This document shows, piece after piece, positions 577-30,514 of a DNA stretch of 64,000 nt. A program made the position numbers and the translations under genes. Source of the DNA: an uncultured Pseudomonadota bacterium (GTDB lineage Bacteria > Pseudomonadota > Alphaproteobacteria > Rs-D84); assembly GCA_949298405.1 (NCBI GenBank), contig CASFWA010000005.1:1-64000 (forward strand), written 5' to 3'. Position 1 is the first letter of the stretch. Each line of letters starts with the position of its first letter. Under the pieces are notes generated by a model that was not told the DNA's origin, did not search any database, and saw nothing but the letters and a program-made list of their open reading frames with translations.

Positions 577-3249
577 ATGTTTGATTCTAATGATTCTTTT
601 TCTCGGGGTTCAGAATGGAGAAAATGCGATTTGCACATACATACACCCGCATCAAATGGTGCATATGGAGATACTAAAAACAAACAAGTTTGGGATTCTT
701 TCATAGAGGACTTGGAAAATTGTTATGAGCCTGGCTCTATCTTAGGGATTTGTGATTATAATACGTTTGATGGGTATTTGAAAATAAAAAGAGATTACCC
801 GGAGTTTTCAAAAAAATATACATTATTACCGGTAATAGAATTACGTACAGATGATTACGTTGGAAAGACGGCGACATTGAAAATAAATTTACATGTGATT
901 TTTTCTGATGCTGTAAGACACGAAGATCTTAATACATTTTTGGATACGCCATTAACAAAAGATAAAATTAAAATAAAAGATATTACCGATAGAGATGCTA
1001 GGCCTATATGTATAGAAACATTATCCAATTTTTTTAAAGAACATATACAATATTACAAAGACAAGTACTTGCTTATGTTAGGGAAAAACGAAACTGAAGA
1101 AATAGATGTTGGTATACGGAGCTTATATATGCAAAACGTACAATTTATGTGTAGTGCCTCAGAAACTGTAGAAACTGCAGGCAAAAGCAAGAGAAATACG
1201 GATTTGTATTATGGACAACATGGTATAAAATATTTGCATTGTAGCGATGCGCATAATTATAGTAATATAACAACCGAGAACACTAGAAAAATTGGCCATT
1301 GTTTTACCTGGATTAAAGGGAAAAATTGTTTTGAAACCTTAAGACAAGCTTATTTTTCATATGATTCAAGAATCCGAATATCAAAAGAAAAACCTGCATC
1401 TGCATTATCATACTTTAATTGTATAAAAATGGACATGCCAGAAGATGTAAAAATAGACAAAGAACCTCATTGTTTCGCTGGCATACGTAGTACATTACCT
1501 TTAAATCCTGGACTAAATTGTTTTATAGGTGGGAGAGGAACCGGGAAAAGTCTTTTGTTAGCGATGGTTAGCAGCAAAAACAAAGATAATTTGTCCGGTA
1601 TGAGTAATGTTATAAACAAAATCAACCCTACCAATTGGAAAGACTTTATTTATGTCGACAATATCCCTTTTGAGTACTTTGGACAGGGAACGATTGAAGA
1701 TTTGTATAAAGATAGAGATAAGTTTAACAACACTGTGATGGACAGGCTGCACAGATATTGGGCAAATCATGTATACGATAATAATGAACCTGTAGTGCAG
1801 ATTCAAAGTCATATTGGCACTGAGAACCGTAAGATTTCATATCAGGAGGAAATCGATAAGGAAAAAGATAATTTAGAACACTTGCTTAGTGGAGTAAAAA
1901 GGAGTATTGCAAATATTGCAAGCTCTGTACAAAATGATGTTAAAATAAAAAAGCTGGAAACAGAACTCTCAAATAAAAGAAGGATAGTAGAAGCTTTCAA
2001 TGATGATAATTATAAGAAATTACGAGATGAGCTAAATGCCATAAATATAAAAGTTCATTTTATAGATGATAGTAAAGCAAAGTTAGAAGCGCTATTAACC
2101 GCATTATCTGGAATATTCGATTCACAACAGAATATACAAATAGATGAAATAAATTCTGGGGTATCTTATTATGCACAACAATATAATAAACTTATAGAAT
2201 TATGGCATAAGGTTGAAAATCGTTTTAATAACGATAATAACAAAGATTCTGAATTTAGTGCATTAGAGAATCAATTAAAAATGAAACTAATAGATTGCAA
2301 ACAAAAACTTGCTGAGTATTTTGAAAATAAGGGGTTAGATTCTGCTAGTATTGCCGATGCCACGAAGGCGCATACAGAAATTGTAGCATTGCAAGAAGAA
2401 ATTGATGGTTTGCGCAAGTTTAATGACAATAGCGTAATAGATTTTGATAAAATTAAGAGCGATGTTGAGACCGCGAGTGAAAGATATGCAGAAAAACTTA
2501 ATGAGATTATAAATAGAACCAATGTAGCTTTATCACAAGATAATAATGAAGAGAAAAAGTTGCTTTCTTTTGGGGCAGAATATGACGTTGTCAAAGCTGA
2601 TGGGATAATAGAAAAATTTTTTAAAGATTCCCTGAATATAAATCCAAATGATTTGCAGGCATTAAAAAATCGGTATAATGGCGAAGTGGATTTATATAGT
2701 CAACAGCTACTAACGCTGTGCAATGAAAACCCAAACCTATCTACTTCACACAAAATATTAGATTTTTTCAATCAGAACAGTAAAAATATGCAATTATATG
2801 ACATGTATATTTTATTAAGTAAAAATAATTGGATAGATTGTACAAAGTTTTTATTAAAGTATAAAATGAAAGATTTAAATGAATTGTCGTTTGGCCAAAG
2901 AGCGACAGCCGTGGTTATTATGTTATTGTTGTTCGATAATAAGCCAATCATAATCGATGAACCTGAAACACATCTAGACCAACGTTTTATTGCTAATGAA
3001 TTAGTGGATATTATAAAGCAAGTAAAGCAAAATAGGCAGATTATTTTTGCTACTCATAATGCAAATATTGTAGTTGGTGCAGATGCAGAACAGATATATG
3101 TGTTAAAAACCGATGAAAATACAAAGTTAACAAGTTTTGAGCAAATGAGCATTGAAGATGTTTATGAACAAAATAAACAGGCTGAATTGATGTGTCTTGA
3201 GGGTTCAAAAGAGGCGTTTCAAAATAGAGAAAAGAAGTATTCCTTGTAG
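577..3249 (+). CDS. PHP domain plus SMC/ABC-type ATPase protein (TrlF-like, possible defence)
   Basis: This 890-residue protein joins an N-terminal PHP phosphoesterase domain to an ABC-type ATPase split by a long coiled coil. The PHP part shows CDLHIHTP near residue 14 and CSDAH near 225, both metal-binding signatures. The ATPase shows the P-loop GGRGTGKS near 317, a coiled-coil stretch of about 400-720, the signature LSFGQR near 769, Walker B IIIDEPETHLD near 790 and the H-loop ATHN near 824. This order matches proteins annotated as TrlF-type AAA-like ATPases, which are common in mobile elements and may act in phage defence; that role is inference. The gene stands alone between a recombinase and phage-like genes and is AT-rich. 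Confidence 0.8.
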   Translation: MFDSNDSFSRGSEWRKCDLHIHTPASNGAYGDTKNKQVWDSFIEDLENCYEPGSILGICDYNTFDGYLKIKRDYPEFSKKYTLLPVIELRTDDYVGKTATLKINLHVIFSDAVRHEDLNTFLDTPLTKDKIKIKDITDRDARPICIETLSNFFKEHIQYYKDKYLLMLGKNETEEIDVGIRSLYMQNVQFMCSASETVETAGKSKRNTDLYYGQHGIKYLHCSDAHNYSNITTENTRKIGHCFTWIKGKNCFETLRQAYFSYDSRIRISKEKPASALSYFNCIKMDMPEDVKIDKEPHCFAGIRSTLPLNPGLNCFIGGRGTGKSLLLAMVSSKNKDNLSGMSNVINKINPTNWKDFIYVDNIPFEYFGQGTIEDLYKDRDKFNNTVMDRLHRYWANHVYDNNEPVVQIQSHIGTENRKISYQEEIDKEKDNLEHLLSGVKRSIANIASSVQNDVKIKKLETELSNKRRIVEAFNDDNYKKLRDELNAINIKVHFIDDSKAKLEALLTALSGIFDSQQNIQIDEINSGVSYYAQQYNKLIELWHKVENRFNNDNNKDSEFSALENQLKMKLIDCKQKLAEYFENKGLDSASIADATKAHTEIVALQEEIDGLRKFNDNSVIDFDKIKSDVETASERYAEKLNEIINRTNVALSQDNNEEKKLLSFGAEYDVVKADGIIEKFFKDSLNINPNDLQALKNRYNGEVDLYSQQLLTLCNENPNLSTSHKILDFFNQNSKNMQLYDMYILLSKNNWIDCTKFLLKYKMKDLNELSFGQRATAVVIMLLLFDNKPIIIDEPETHLDQRFIANELVDIIKQVKQNRQIIFATHNANIVVGADAEQIYVLKTDENTKLTSFEQMSIEDVYEQNKQAELMCLEGSKEAFQNREKKYSL

Positions 3250-5856: not shown

Positions 5857-5931
5857 ATGCTAAAATATATAAAGCCCTTGATAACGTTATTCTCTGGACT
5901 TATGCGCTTTTCTTATCAATGTTGTGTGTAA
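5857..5931 (+). CDS. Possible 24-residue small ORF after the Nu1-like gene
   Basis: ATG at 5857 opens MLKYIKPLITLFSGLMRFSY followed by QCCV. AAGGAG lies 6-7 nt upstream within the end of the previous gene, an arrangement typical of a translated gene. It is hydrophobic and occupies the place where a large terminase gene would start. It could be a tiny membrane peptide or a deletion scar. Confidence 0.35.
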   Translation: MLKYIKPLITLFSGLMRFSYQCCV

Positions 5932-5945
5932 ATAAAGGGATAAAT

Positions 5946-7157
5946 ATGCGAACGCTTAAATGTCAAAAGTTGGCTTTAACAACAGGATTTCTCAACAAAT
6001 TGAAATCAGACATTGATTTGCAAATAACAGATGCAGCATTGCCGGGTTTGCAATGCCGATATTCGGCTGCAACGGGGCGCAAAGTGTTCTATTTGGGATA
6101 TCGTGTTCGCGGTTCATATCAACAAAAGCATATAAGATTAGGATCGTTGGCGGAATTTAGCTTGAATGAAATTCGTACTCGGGCGATAAAGACAAAGCAA
6201 GATATCGCCAACGGGTTGGACCCACAATCAGAACAGCGCATACGCATAAGGCAAAATGAAATGGCCGCAGCACGATGTAAACGAGTCCGTGAATTAACCG
6301 CAATATTTATGGAAAAACACTGTCGTGAAAATAATCGGGCGAACACTTATCGATCAAACGAAGCGTTGATGCGTCTGTATATAAATCCATATCTTGGTGA
6401 TAAATACATTGCAGATATTGATTTGGGTATAATCCAGGACATGTACGATAAAATCAAAAACACGAAAACCATTGCGATTGGTTTACATGTTATGCGATTG
6501 TTATCGACTTTTCTAAATTGGTGCGAAAAATACAATTATCGCAAAATAAATTCAAATCCATGTCACTTAGTTCAAAAAGCTAAATCTCCAAAGATGAACC
6601 ACACAATTCTGGATGTTGATGGATACAAACGGCTGTTTAGTGCATTGGATGAAGCGCTTTGTGTTGGGAGATATGCACCACAAACTATCTTGGCAATAAA
6701 AACTCTTGCGCTGACGGGGTGTCGCAGCAGTGAAATAACAAACCTAGAACTGAATGAGTTAGATCTGAAAAACGGGTATCTGCGTTTAAACAAACGCAAA
6801 ACAAATGCATTTAATGTACCCCTAGGCGATCCAGCAATAGAAGTTATAAATCAAGCTTTGAGAATTTGCAAAAGTAACCGATATGTGTTTCATTCTCCAA
6901 TTGACCATACCTGTCCATTGACAGATTTGCGTAAAGCATTTTGGTGGGCATTAGATCGTGCGGGATTACCGCGGATGCGAATACATGACCTGCGTCATTC
7001 CTTTGCAACACTGGCAACCAGCATGGGCGAAGATATACGAATATTAAAAGACGTACTGGGACACACAAAAATCACCACAACAGAAATATATGCGCATGCG
7101 TCAAGTGTTGCCGCGCGTCGCACCGCAAATAATGTTGCAAGCAAAATAATGGGATAA
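5946..7157 (+). CDS. Tyrosine recombinase / phage integrase with arm-binding domain
   Basis: A 403-residue P4/phage-type integrase. The N-terminal DUF4102-like arm-binding domain spans about 1-95 (LPGLQCRYSAATGRKVFYLGYRVRG). A SAM-like core-binding domain spans about 115-205, followed by the catalytic domain. Catalytic residues are visible: Arg in TGCRSSEI near 259, HDLRHSFAT near 347, LGHTKITTTEIYAHAS with the nucleophile Tyr near 382. The ATG at 5946 with AAAGGGA upstream is preferred to 5919. It lies about 1.2 kb from the tRNA-Arg gene, the usual place for an integrase next to its attachment site, and its catalytic set looks intact. Confidence 0.93.
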   Translation: MRTLKCQKLALTTGFLNKLKSDIDLQITDAALPGLQCRYSAATGRKVFYLGYRVRGSYQQKHIRLGSLAEFSLNEIRTRAIKTKQDIANGLDPQSEQRIRIRQNEMAAARCKRVRELTAIFMEKHCRENNRANTYRSNEALMRLYINPYLGDKYIADIDLGIIQDMYDKIKNTKTIAIGLHVMRLLSTFLNWCEKYNYRKINSNPCHLVQKAKSPKMNHTILDVDGYKRLFSALDEALCVGRYAPQTILAIKTLALTGCRSSEITNLELNELDLKNGYLRLNKRKTNAFNVPLGDPAIEVINQALRICKSNRYVFHSPIDHTCPLTDLRKAFWWALDRAGLPRMRIHDLRHSFATLATSMGEDIRILKDVLGHTKITTTEIYAHASSVAARRTANNVASKIMG

Positions 7158-8393: not shown

Positions 8394-8470
8394 TGGCGTG
8401 CCCAGCAGGATTCGAACCTGCAACCTATTGCTTAGAAGGCAATTGCTCTATCCGGTTGAGCCATGGGCAC
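8394..8470 (-). tRNA. tRNA-Arg (anticodon UCU), complete, CCA encoded
   Basis: The minus strand folds as a full cloverleaf. GTGCCCA pairs with TGGGCAC in the acceptor stem, the anticodon loop is CTTCTAA in an ATTGC/GCAAT stem, the T-arm contains GGTTCGAATCC, the discriminator is G, and CCA is encoded. Its body differs from the severed tRNA-Arg(UCU) at 8675-8715, so it is not a simple reconstitution of that gene. It may be carried by the integrated element. Confidence 0.93.
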
Positions 8471-26435: not shown

Positions 26436-27747
26436 TAAACAAATAAGTTTATTTTTTACTTGAAGTAAAAACTAATCGTTTTTACTTCTTTTTTATATAC
26501 ATATTTATAAAGATTATGTATAGTTGTTTTTGTGTGGGGCGGTGTGATAATGGGGGTGTTTTTTTATGTTTTTATGTATTTTAATTGCGTGTTGAGTATG
26601 GGTAATGGTTTTGTGGTAAAAAACGCAAAAATCTGATAGAAATATAAAAAAGGACGTTGTTCACCGCTTTTAATAACGTTTTTTTGGAAAATAGGCGTGT
26701 TCGGTGAATTTGTCTGTGTGCTGGGGTGGTTTGTGTGGAAAAAAAGAAGAATAGGGGCGTTTGCCGTTTTTTTATGGGGCGTAGAGCTTGATGATGAATC
26801 CTGAATGGACTGACTGATTTCTTCTTGGTAAATAAATGCGGGTAAAGGTTTTGTGAGAGTGCGTGCGTGGGAGGTGTTGTGCGGAGATTGTGGGTAGTGT
26901 TGTGGAACTTTCGTTGTTTATTGAAAAGTTGGATGTTTATGACTGTGTTTCTTTATGATGTTTGTCGGTTTTTGTCGTAAAATGGAATATAGAAGAGAAA
27001 AAACAGTGGGCGGGGTTGTTTGTTGCTTCTGGTTTTTTGTTGGGCGTTTAACGTTCTTCTTTTTATGTCTTTTTTATATAGGGAAGCGATATCATAAAGG
27101 CGCATAATGTATATTATGTATAGTTTGGTGTAGTTTAGGGTATTTTTTTTGGCGCTTTGTGGTTTGTGTGAATTTTATGTTTTTCTTGTCCTTTTTGATT
27201 GTTTTTTGTTTTCTTTTGATGAAAAAATTTCTAAAAATATTAATTTTTATTATTTAATAATTAAGATATCTTTTTGTTTTTATTGTTAGAAATAAAATTA
27301 ACTTTTGTTGTTTTGGGTTTGGCCTGTTTTTTTTGTTTGTTGTACTTGTGCGAATGTTGAAAAGTGCCCTTTTGGTCTTTCGTATGGTCTGGATATCTTT
27401 TTTTAGCTTTTTTTATAAAGCCTAAAATAAACAAAATTTATGAAATTTGGGCTTTTGCGCGTTTTTTTTGCCTAAAAGAGCGCTTTTTTAGAAGAAAAAC
27501 GGCGGATTTCTGCGGTTTTTTTGCTGCTTTGACGCTTTTTTATATGGGGTGGTCGGTTTTTGTGGGGGTGCTTGTTATTTTTTTTGTGTGATAAATTAAA
27601 ATGTTTTTAGGTTTTTAACGGATGGGTTATGCTTTTTTTGGTGTGTTGTGTGAAAATGGTTGTAAAAATAAATTATTTAAAATGACAATAAAATCATATT
27701 ATTAATCTTATAAGTAAAATTAACTTGTTAGGTTTTTATAATAAAAC
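26436..27747. other. 1.3-kb G/T-rich non-coding tract
   Basis: No convincing gene lies in this stretch. On the plus strand it is strongly G/T-rich and C-poor, with many runs such as TTTTTT, GGGGTG and GTGTGG, unlike the A/T-balanced gaps elsewhere. The first part has G-rich islands (26,530-27,060) and the last part is T-rich then A-rich. The only ORF of note (27364-27591) starts with GTG, has no ribosome site and is Phe-rich as expected from T-rich DNA. I saw no tandem repeat or tRNA. It ends at the left inverted repeat of the RM cassette. Confidence 0.6.
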
Positions 27748-27767
27748 ACTCTGTCCTACCAAACAGG
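27748..27767 (+). repeat. Left 20-bp inverted repeat of the RM cassette
   Basis: ACTCTGTCCTACCAAACAGG is the exact reverse complement of 30390-30409. The pair lies 2.6 kb apart and encloses one gene with its promoter and terminator. Confidence 0.9.
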
Positions 27768-27792
27768 AGAAATTTAAGCAAAAGAATAGAAT

Positions 27793-27821
27793 TTGAGAAA
27801 ATAAAGAAAATATAGTATAAT
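27793..27821 (+). promoter_or_regulatory. Promoter of the type IIG RM gene
   Basis: TTGAGA at 27793-27798 and TATAAT at 27816-27821 with a 17-bp spacer lie inside the left inverted repeat and before AAGGAG at 27840. Confidence 0.7.
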
Positions 27822-27855
27822 ATCGTTGATAAATAAGGGGAAGGAGAATGATAAT

Positions 27856-30282
27856 ATGGCGATATTTACAAGATTTGATATTATAAATACAATCGGTAGA
27901 AAATATTTAACAACAAATATTGAAAATGATGAATTTAGTTACCAACAAGCATTTGGAGACAAATGGAAAAATATAGATAAAAATATTTTTAAATCTACAA
28001 AGAAAGATACTATACATACAAAACTGGATATTAGATTTGTTGATAAAACAAATAAAATCAGTATATTAGTCGAAACAAAAGATAATTCAAAGAATTGGAA
28101 TGAAAAGGAAGTCGAAGAACAATTATCAGCTTATGTGAAAGCAGAAAAATTGTTAACCAATAATCGTATTATTGCAATAATTGCCACTCAACAAGATAAA
28201 GCAATAAAAGTATATTGGGGGTCAGATATTGTAATTGATGATTCTCATAAACTTTCAAATCAATATTCCATTAAATCTTTTTCTGAATATGCAGATTTAT
28301 ACCTAGCTAAAGAAAATAATAAAGAACAAGTAATAAAAAGCACTTATGAATTAAATAAGTTATTACATAAATATGGGATAAATGAAAAAATTAGAAGCCA
28401 ATTTGTTGGAACTTGTTTGTTGGCCTTGAAGTATAATATTGCTTATCAAGGATTACAAACACCACAAATTATAGCAGGTATTCGTTCTGTTTTAGAAAGA
28501 TTGTTAAATACCGATATAAATAAAGCAAATAAAATTGCTTTATTAGATAGCAAAGTATTACAATCCCAAGATGTAAAAAATCTAAAATCAAACGAATTTG
28601 AACAAATTTTAGATTTTATACAGAATGAAATTTTAGAATATATCAACGATACAAGTACTATGGGACAAGATATATTAAACTTGTTTTTTACTACATTTAA
28701 TAAATATGTTGGAAAAGCAGATAAAAACCAGGCTTTTACTCCAGATCATATAGCCCATTTTATGTGTAAAGTTGTAGGAATAAATAGAAATTCAAGGGTA
28801 TTAGACCCTTGTTGTGGAAGTGGTGCTTTTCTGGTAAGAGCGATGACAGAAGCTTTGGATGATTGTGAAAACCAACAAGAACGAGATAAAGTAAAAAAAG
28901 AACAAATTTATGGAATAGAATTTGAAGATACAGCTTTTGGTTTGTCAACAACAAATATGTTAATACATAGTGATGGAAATTCAAATGTAAAACAAAGCAG
29001 TTGTTTTGAAGAAGAAGATTTTATAAAAAATGCAAATATAAATGTTGTATTAATGAACCCACCATATAATGCCCAGAAGAAGTATTGTTGGAAAGAATAT
29101 ACAGATGCATGGAATAAAGATACCAAAGAAGACCCATCTCAGGGGTTGCATTTTGTATATTATATTGCATCAAAAGTAAAAACTGGAAAATTAGCTGTTT
29201 TATTACCTATGCAATGTGCTATTGGCAGTTCTTCAACTGATATACAACAATTTAAGAAAAAAATGTTAGAAGAACATACATTAGATGCAGTTTTTTCATT
29301 GCCTGTTGATATTTTTCATCCAGGTTCTACTTCTGTTGCTTGTTGTATGATATTTAATCTTGGAACCAGACACAAAAACTCAAAATTACCAACATTTTTT
29401 GGTTGCTATAAAGATGACGGCTTTATAAAAAGAAAAAATATGGGTCGAGTGGAAAAAACAAAAAATAATACTAATGAAGGTGTTTGGTCTGATATAGAAT
29501 CAGAATGGCTAAATTTATATTTTAATAGGATTGCAAAACCAGGTTTATCTGTTGTAAAAAATGTTACCGCTGAAGATGAGTGGTTAGCAGAAGCATATAT
29601 GGAAAATGATTATTCAACTTTAACACAAATAAACTTTGAAAACAATTTACGTGAATTTCTTGCATTCGAAATAAAATCAAAAACAGACAACTGTTATAAT
29701 AAACTACCTAGGCAAACAAGTAATCTAAATTTTGATACTTCTACTTGGCAAACTTTTAAAATAAGCGAACTGTTTAACAATATAGAATATGGTAAAATTC
29801 AAAAAACAGAAGTATTAAAATCAGGTAATGATGTGTATTATATTGGTGCTAAAAAAGATGATAACGGTGTAATATCTAAACATAAATTCGATTCTGAATA
29901 TATTTCGAATGGAAATTGTATTATTATGATTTGTGATGGTCAAGGTTCTATAGGTTATAATATTTATATAAATCAAGACTTTTTTGGAACAATCAATTTA
30001 GCATTGGGGTATAATGATAATCTAACAAAATATAATGCATTATTTATTATTACGGTTTTAGACCTAGAGAGACCAAAATTTAGTTTTGGAAGAAAACGAA
30101 AACCAACATTAAAAAATACAACTATAAAACTTCCCGCAAAACCAAAATTAAACGATAAAGGTGAACAGGAATACGAAGAAATAGAAGATAACGGAAAAAA
30201 GATTAAGAAACCATTGTATGATCCAGATTGGCAATATATGGAAGATTATATAAAATCTTTACCGTATGCAGATTTAATTTAG
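27856..30282 (+). CDS. Type IIG restriction-modification enzyme (nuclease + N6-adenine methylase + specificity domain)
   Basis: An 808-residue single-chain RM protein. The N-terminal part (about 1-150) shows LDIRFV...ILVETKD near 60-80, a PD-(D/E)xK-like nuclease site of the HsdR type. The central HsdM-like methylase has AFTPDHIAHFM near 295, motif I VLDPCCGSGAFL near 315 and motif IV NPPY near 400. The C-terminus (about 635-800) resembles one HsdS target-recognition half (TWQTFKISELFNNIEYGKIQ). It would both cut and methylate DNA. ATG 27856 is chosen over a TTG at 27826. The gene is AT-richer than its neighbours, has no separate hsdR or hsdS and is bounded by inverted repeats, all signs of transfer. 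Confidence 0.85.
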   Translation: MAIFTRFDIINTIGRKYLTTNIENDEFSYQQAFGDKWKNIDKNIFKSTKKDTIHTKLDIRFVDKTNKISILVETKDNSKNWNEKEVEEQLSAYVKAEKLLTNNRIIAIIATQQDKAIKVYWGSDIVIDDSHKLSNQYSIKSFSEYADLYLAKENNKEQVIKSTYELNKLLHKYGINEKIRSQFVGTCLLALKYNIAYQGLQTPQIIAGIRSVLERLLNTDINKANKIALLDSKVLQSQDVKNLKSNEFEQILDFIQNEILEYINDTSTMGQDILNLFFTTFNKYVGKADKNQAFTPDHIAHFMCKVVGINRNSRVLDPCCGSGAFLVRAMTEALDDCENQQERDKVKKEQIYGIEFEDTAFGLSTTNMLIHSDGNSNVKQSSCFEEEDFIKNANINVVLMNPPYNAQKKYCWKEYTDAWNKDTKEDPSQGLHFVYYIASKVKTGKLAVLLPMQCAIGSSSTDIQQFKKKMLEEHTLDAVFSLPVDIFHPGSTSVACCMIFNLGTRHKNSKLPTFFGCYKDDGFIKRKNMGRVEKTKNNTNEGVWSDIESEWLNLYFNRIAKPGLSVVKNVTAEDEWLAEAYMENDYSTLTQINFENNLREFLAFEIKSKTDNCYNKLPRQTSNLNFDTSTWQTFKISELFNNIEYGKIQKTEVLKSGNDVYYIGAKKDDNGVISKHKFDSEYISNGNCIIMICDGQGSIGYNIYINQDFFGTINLALGYNDNLTKYNALFIITVLDLERPKFSFGRKRKPTLKNTTIKLPAKPKLNDKGEQEYEEIEDNGKKIKKPLYDPDWQYMEDYIKSLPYADLI

Positions 30283-30337
30283 AAAGCAACTTTATATTTC
30301 AAACTGTTTCTTGTGATATAATTATTACAACCAATCA

Positions 30338-30366
30338 AGGTGTCAAAGGCATTGGCACCTTGTTTC
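30338..30366 (+). terminator. Terminator of the RM gene
   Basis: CAAGGTGTCA and TGGCACCTTG pair over 10 positions with one G-T pair and a 7-nt loop, followed by TTTCATT. It lies inside the right inverted repeat. Confidence 0.65.
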
Positions 30367-30389
30367 ATTACATTTATAATAATTTATCA

Positions 30390-30409
30390 CCTGTTTGGTA
30401 GGACAGAGT
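30390..30409 (-). repeat. Right 20-bp inverted repeat of the RM cassette
   Basis: CCTGTTTGGTAGGACAGAGT is the exact reverse complement of 27748-27767. ATAATAAAA follows directly at 30410-30418 and also occurs at 27738-27746, one base outside the left copy, as a target-site duplication might; the AT-rich sequence weakens this. Confidence 0.9.
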
Positions 30410-30514
30410 ATAATAAAAAACAAGCCGATATGTTGACGCGCCTTTAAATATTATATCGTCTTTACCGGCTTGTGTTGATGTCATAGCATTCTGTGTACAT
30501 TAGATATAAATATA

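Follow-up and report, generated by a model that had tools for sequence, protein, structure and literature searches.

A restriction-modification gene between inverted repeats as a probable transposase-deleted derivative of an IS1595-family transporter element

What could have moved a solitary restriction-modification (RM) gene that lies between perfect inverted repeats with no complete transposase gene beside it? RM systems move widely, and inverted-repeat, transposase-less units of this sort have had no identified mover. One such unit lies in the window, by which we mean the whole 64,000-nt stretch of DNA analysed here, from the genome of an uncultured alphaproteobacterium (G000). The original prediction described it as a minimal cassette moved by enzymes acting in trans. 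Our comparison with other genomes of the family points elsewhere: positions 27747-30410 are very probably a transposase-deleted derivative, of the mobile-insertion-cassette (MIC) type, of an IS1595-family transporter IS (tIS) with a HaeIV-like RM passenger. We favor this reading because the ends, the target duplication, an empty site, an intact parent-type copy and a transposase remnant can all be seen in the sequence. The features of the unit are listed here in order.

27739-27746, no strand: left copy of the 8-bp target-site duplication TAATAAAA, the same as 30411-30418 and present as a single copy in the empty site of the related genome G102
27747-27767, plus strand: left terminal inverted repeat CACTCTGTCCTACCAAACAGG; the left end is identical in the related genome G031 (L005:6673)
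27793-27821, plus strand: sigma-70-like promoter TTGAGA-17-TATAAT, matching the consensus at 11 of 12 positions in a consensus scan
27841-27846, plus strand: Shine-Dalgarno-like AAGGAG, 9 nt before the ATG at 27856, read from the sequence
27856-30282, plus strand: single-gene type IIG/IIB-like RM enzyme, 808 aa from the ATG (818 aa with the TTG at 27826)
28072-28080, plus strand: E-x-K of the putative PD-(D/E)xK nuclease, E73/K75 in ATG numbering, invariant in 9 aligned homologues
28699-29370, plus strand: N6-adenine methyltransferase domain (Pfam PF02384, 9.4e-32)
29056-29067, plus strand: methylase motif IV NPPY, invariant in the aligned homologues
29740-30144, plus strand: single target-recognition domain (TRD), half of an HsdS/BcgIB-type subunit (Pfam PF01420, 1e-10); homologues have a separate S gene
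30279-30383, minus strand: 3' remnant of an IS1595-family transposase gene that spans roughly residues 310-343 of 343; it runs convergently to the RM gene and overlaps the RM stop codon
30336-30362, plus strand: terminator-like hairpin CAAGGTGTCAAAGGCATTGGCACCTTG followed by TTT, inside the transposase remnant
30390-30410, minus strand: right terminal inverted repeat, with outermost base A against G in the intact relative
30411-30418, no strand: right copy of the 8-bp target-site duplication TAATAAAA, matching the left copy

The perfect 20-bp inverted pair around one fused RM gene proved exact, with ACTCTGTCCTACCAAACAGG at 27748-27767 on the plus strand and at 30390-30409 on the minus strand. 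No further copy occurs in the window when up to 3 mismatches are allowed, where shuffles expect 0, or anywhere else in the 898-kb genome. Comparison with the intact copy in G031 sets the register of the element at 27747-30410 (2664 bp) and that of its target-site duplication at 8 bp, TAATAAAA, at 27739-27746 and 30411-30418. The original prediction had described the flanking match as possibly a target-site duplication with one extra base on the left. ATAATAAAA is indeed present at both flanks (27738-27746 and 30410-30418), but the 'extra' left base belongs to the left terminal repeat, as its outermost base, and the ninth base on the right is the last base of the element. The terminal inverted repeats of the window copy are thus present with one terminal-base mismatch. 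Strictly, a 9-bp duplication that lost one base could still stand in place of the 8-bp one, since the right-most base differs from that of G031 (A, not G).

A relative of the window genome, G102 (91-95% DNA identity), carries the uninterrupted empty site. When the window flanks were joined, they matched one locus of G102 at 95% over 729 nt, in which the target is unbroken; the site reads TTTTTATAATAAAAAACAAGCC with a single target copy, which is what the original prediction had named as support, and the 8 kb around it are syntenic with the window. The element is a real insertion, because G102 has this uninterrupted site. It would have inserted after the split from G102 or been precisely lost there, and insertion is the simpler reading because the target duplication is present.

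The repeats were searched for in 183 genomes of the family, and a second copy was found in only one other, G031, a metagenome-assembled genome (MAG, 88% complete) of the same genus as the window genome. Here they again form an inverted pair, at a different locus, and enclose the same RM gene (99% aa identity) together with a gene for a 343-aa transposase. The exact element is known in these two copies only, and the same gene in the same place in relatives lacking the repeats was not found. It is extremely improbable that the repeats are chance or palindrome-type sequences, such as terminators or regulatory sites, and that the RM gene between them is an ordinary chromosomal one; the uniqueness of the repeats in the window genome would suit that idea, but it is contradicted by the 0 copies expected in shuffles, by the G102 empty site and by the second copy elsewhere.

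The G031 element spans 3668 bp, ends in CACTCTG...CAGAGTG, has a perfect 8-bp duplication, TTTTGTTA, and lies just downstream of a tRNA gene and its terminator-like T-tract; a search for the empty site of this locus gave tRNA matches only. Its transposase gene is convergent with the RM gene, and the two stop codons overlap. The protein matches the IS1595-family model NF033547 (E 3.9e-41, 141 bits against a cut-off of 75), the DDE_Tnp_IS1595 domain PF12762 (38.9 bits, cut-off 27) and, at its N-terminal zinc ribbon, the zinc-ribbon model NF050000 (34 bits, cut-off 28). The reading frame is intact, making this copy a putative autonomous element. The straightforward reading is that the element would have moved horizontally between species of the genus, since it is 98.4% identical in the window and in G031 (2616/2658), whereas homologous core DNA of the two genomes, compared over the uvrA-prfA region (leuS was not found in the 88%-complete G031), is only 64-79% identical.

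The 42 differences between the two copies are unevenly spread. The first 172 bp of the element (27747-27918) are 13% diverged from G031 (L005) and hold 23 of them (binomial p about 6e-17), whereas the remaining 2.5 kb are 0.8% diverged. This suggests that the left end recombined with a divergent copy. Because the left 172 bp are far more diverged than the rest, the window and G031 copies would not be simple descendants of one intact element, and some recombination would have taken place. The mosaic left end also fits a very unlikely alternative, namely that the RM unit was itself mobile, through long target duplication or homologous recombination, and that the inverted repeats had no part in this; movement of RM genes in the absence of any known transposase is on record (PMC3874152). 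Yet the intact G031 parent with a transposase of a family that makes 8-bp duplications contradicts this, as do the 8-bp duplications at two independent insertions.

The trace of the deletion lies in the stretch that separates the RM gene from the right repeat. The original prediction held that the repeats enclose one promoter, one fused gene, one terminator and nothing else; the promoter-like site, the fused RM gene and the terminator-like hairpin are all there, but so is the 3'-terminal part of a transposase gene of the IS1595 type. This remnant comprises the last ~31-34 transposase codons, is 91% identical to the G031 protein over residues 310-343 and identical over the last 31 residues, and then joins the right repeat. 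The hairpin of the RM gene lies within the retained piece. About 1.0 kb of the G031 element is missing, and with it a functional transposase of the window copy's own. No IS1595 transposase was found elsewhere in the 99.5%-complete window genome with the Pfam domain and the G031 protein as queries. As far as the assembly shows, a resident IS1595-type enzyme could not mobilize the unit, and mobility in trans is possible but unsupported in this genome, since no such transposase was found elsewhere. The mobile character of the cassette is upheld by the repeats, the duplication, the empty site and the near-identical G031 copy, while its description as a minimal, transposase-free cassette moved in trans gives way to that of a deletion derivative.

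A variant of this reading differs in the order of events, in that the window copy would be an active non-autonomous element, a true MIC, that arrived by trans-catalyzed transposition after its transposase was lost. We regard it as possible but unlikely. Its ends and target duplication are intact and its inner repeats perfect, and cognate transposases are known to activate MICs (PMC3129680). However, neither an IS1595 transposase nor another copy of the cassette was found in the window genome, one end has an altered terminal base, and the sequence fits a deletion either before or after insertion at this site.

Under the deletion-derivative reading, the parent would be an IS1595-family transporter IS with CACTCTGTCC... 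terminal repeats and 8-bp A/T-rich target duplications. Its sole passenger gene, convergent with that of the transposase, would encode a HaeIV-like RM enzyme that is complete in a single polypeptide. The IS1595 transposase, through DDE chemistry, would have moved the unit between replicons or genomes, including horizontal transfer between species of the genus. An internal deletion of ~1.0 kb would then have taken most of the transposase and spared the RM gene and its terminator, leaving a unit without its own transposase in which the RM gene may now be kept by selection, for phage defence and/or through methylation addiction.

The passenger itself appears to be functional. The RM protein matches the PADLOC model REase_MTase_IIG (1.3e-51). 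It has a gamma N6-adenine methylase, with motifs DPCCGSG and NPPY conserved among homologues, and one Methylase_S stretch (residues 639-773) as a C-terminal single TRD. Its N-terminal region gave no Pfam nuclease match; the PD-(D/E)xK nuclease there is putative, from the conserved ExK and homology. An AlphaFold model has low pLDDT in the nuclease and TRD regions. Since the substitutions between the window and G031 genes are mostly synonymous, with pN/pS of 0.13 overall (Fisher p 2e-7) and 0.09 outside the first 33 codons (p 8e-6 after codon 33), the RM gene is under purifying selection and has been kept functional. Within the family, the nearest homologues are two-gene systems of the BcgIA/BcgIB type, among them a chromosomal one in G146 whose RM subunit is 49% identical, whereas the transposon-borne enzyme is a single chain with one TRD. 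Phage-encoded homologues, one annotated bcgIA, are distant (about 25-33%). The window enzyme is likely to work as a homodimer that recognizes a symmetric bipartite site and methylates adenine on both strands. As a separate observation, a 73-aa fragment at G000:C1:414884-415087 (L047) matches the C-terminus of the RM protein at 45% identity and is probably what remains of another BcgIB-like specificity gene.

Other IS1595 elements of the family carry other cargo. First, a related element in G163 has a transposase with 55% identity, CACTCTGTTAAAC repeats, the duplication TTATAAAT (8 bp, as are TTTTGTTA in G031 and TAATAAAA in the window) and two other genes as cargo. Since this relative bears different cargo, the scaffold is a transposon with variable passengers, as the transporter IS concept predicts. 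Second, a more distant element in G015, of the same genus (L086 5214-8746), has 24-bp repeats, GGGAACTATATACAATGCTAACCA, and the 8-bp duplication GAACAAAT; its cargo encodes a T5orf172 (GIY-YIG) and EcoRI-methylase fusion protein, which makes it the second IS1595 element with a DNA methyltransferase as cargo. Third, IS1595 elements of G180 and G191 have repeats, 8-bp duplications and small lipoprotein-like ORFs as cargo, and elements with such cargo lie at L085 2276-4382 and L091 693-2466. Plasmid matches to the transposase were generic IS1595 elements (33-37% identical). The search of viral contigs with the transposase gave a zinc-ribbon fragment only; a candidate copy of the repeat there was set aside, as the only match, of 17 bp (L082), falls within a phage gene for ribonucleotide reductase and is due to chance. 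A broader conjecture, which we consider rather doubtful, is that IS1595-type transposons of this small-genome alphaproteobacterial lineage repeatedly capture stand-alone DNA-methyltransferase or RM genes (at least two unrelated elements in one genus), and that RM addiction favors loss of the transposase, yielding the transposase-less 'RM with inverted repeats' units of other genomes.

Elsewhere in the window, an integrase gene (5919-7157) lies beside a tRNA-Arg gene (8394-8470), with ORFs that by eye resemble helix-turn-helix and terminase-small-subunit proteins, and 577-3249 encodes an 890-aa PHP/SMC-AAA protein that scores 5.2e-18 with the Ppl defence model. The segment 577-8470 resembles an island of the phage-satellite type with a defence gene as cargo.

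How does the unit compare with known systems? The original prediction considered such a structure not commonly described, a claim now weakened. Furuta et al. described RM units bounded by imperfect inverted repeats and short target duplications in 2010 (summarized in PMC3874152), and both transporter ISs and MICs are recognized, defined categories (PMC3129680, which cites Siguier et al. 2009 for passenger-bearing IS1595 tIS). IS1595-family elements have an 8-bp, A/T-rich duplication and a transposase with a zinc ribbon and a DDE domain (PMC8101967, PMC12561309). The G031 copy shares all of this with the IS1595 tIS, including inverted repeats and one passenger; in contrast, all but the last ~31-34 transposase codons are gone from the window copy, the terminal repeats here begin CACTCTG, and the passenger is a complete one-gene RM system. 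With MICs (MIC231 and relatives, and the qnrS2 mic, which carries a resistance gene; PMC4444841), the window unit shares IS-type ends around a passenger gene and the lack of a functional transposase, but its ends are of the IS1595 type and not of other IS families, it keeps a transposase remnant, and no cognate transposase was found in its genome. Like HaeIV, which has the order R-M-one TRD and is probably a homodimer (PMC3874165), the window enzyme joins in one chain an N-terminal (putative) nuclease, a gamma-type N6-adenine methylase and a C-terminal single TRD, and it is divergent in sequence from HaeIV/BcgI-type IIG (IIB) enzymes. The RM units of Furuta et al., as far as the summary describes them, share inverted repeats, a short target duplication and the absence of a transposase from the unit, and differ in that a transposase-bearing parent and a remnant are identified for the window unit, giving one case a putative mobilizing enzyme. 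One such unit now shows a transposase-bearing parent, an empty site and a deletion remnant together, and the ancestor-derivative pair offers a testable view of a self-contained immunity gene spreading between species and then settling. The window unit belongs to a known kind and is unusual because its intact parent was found.
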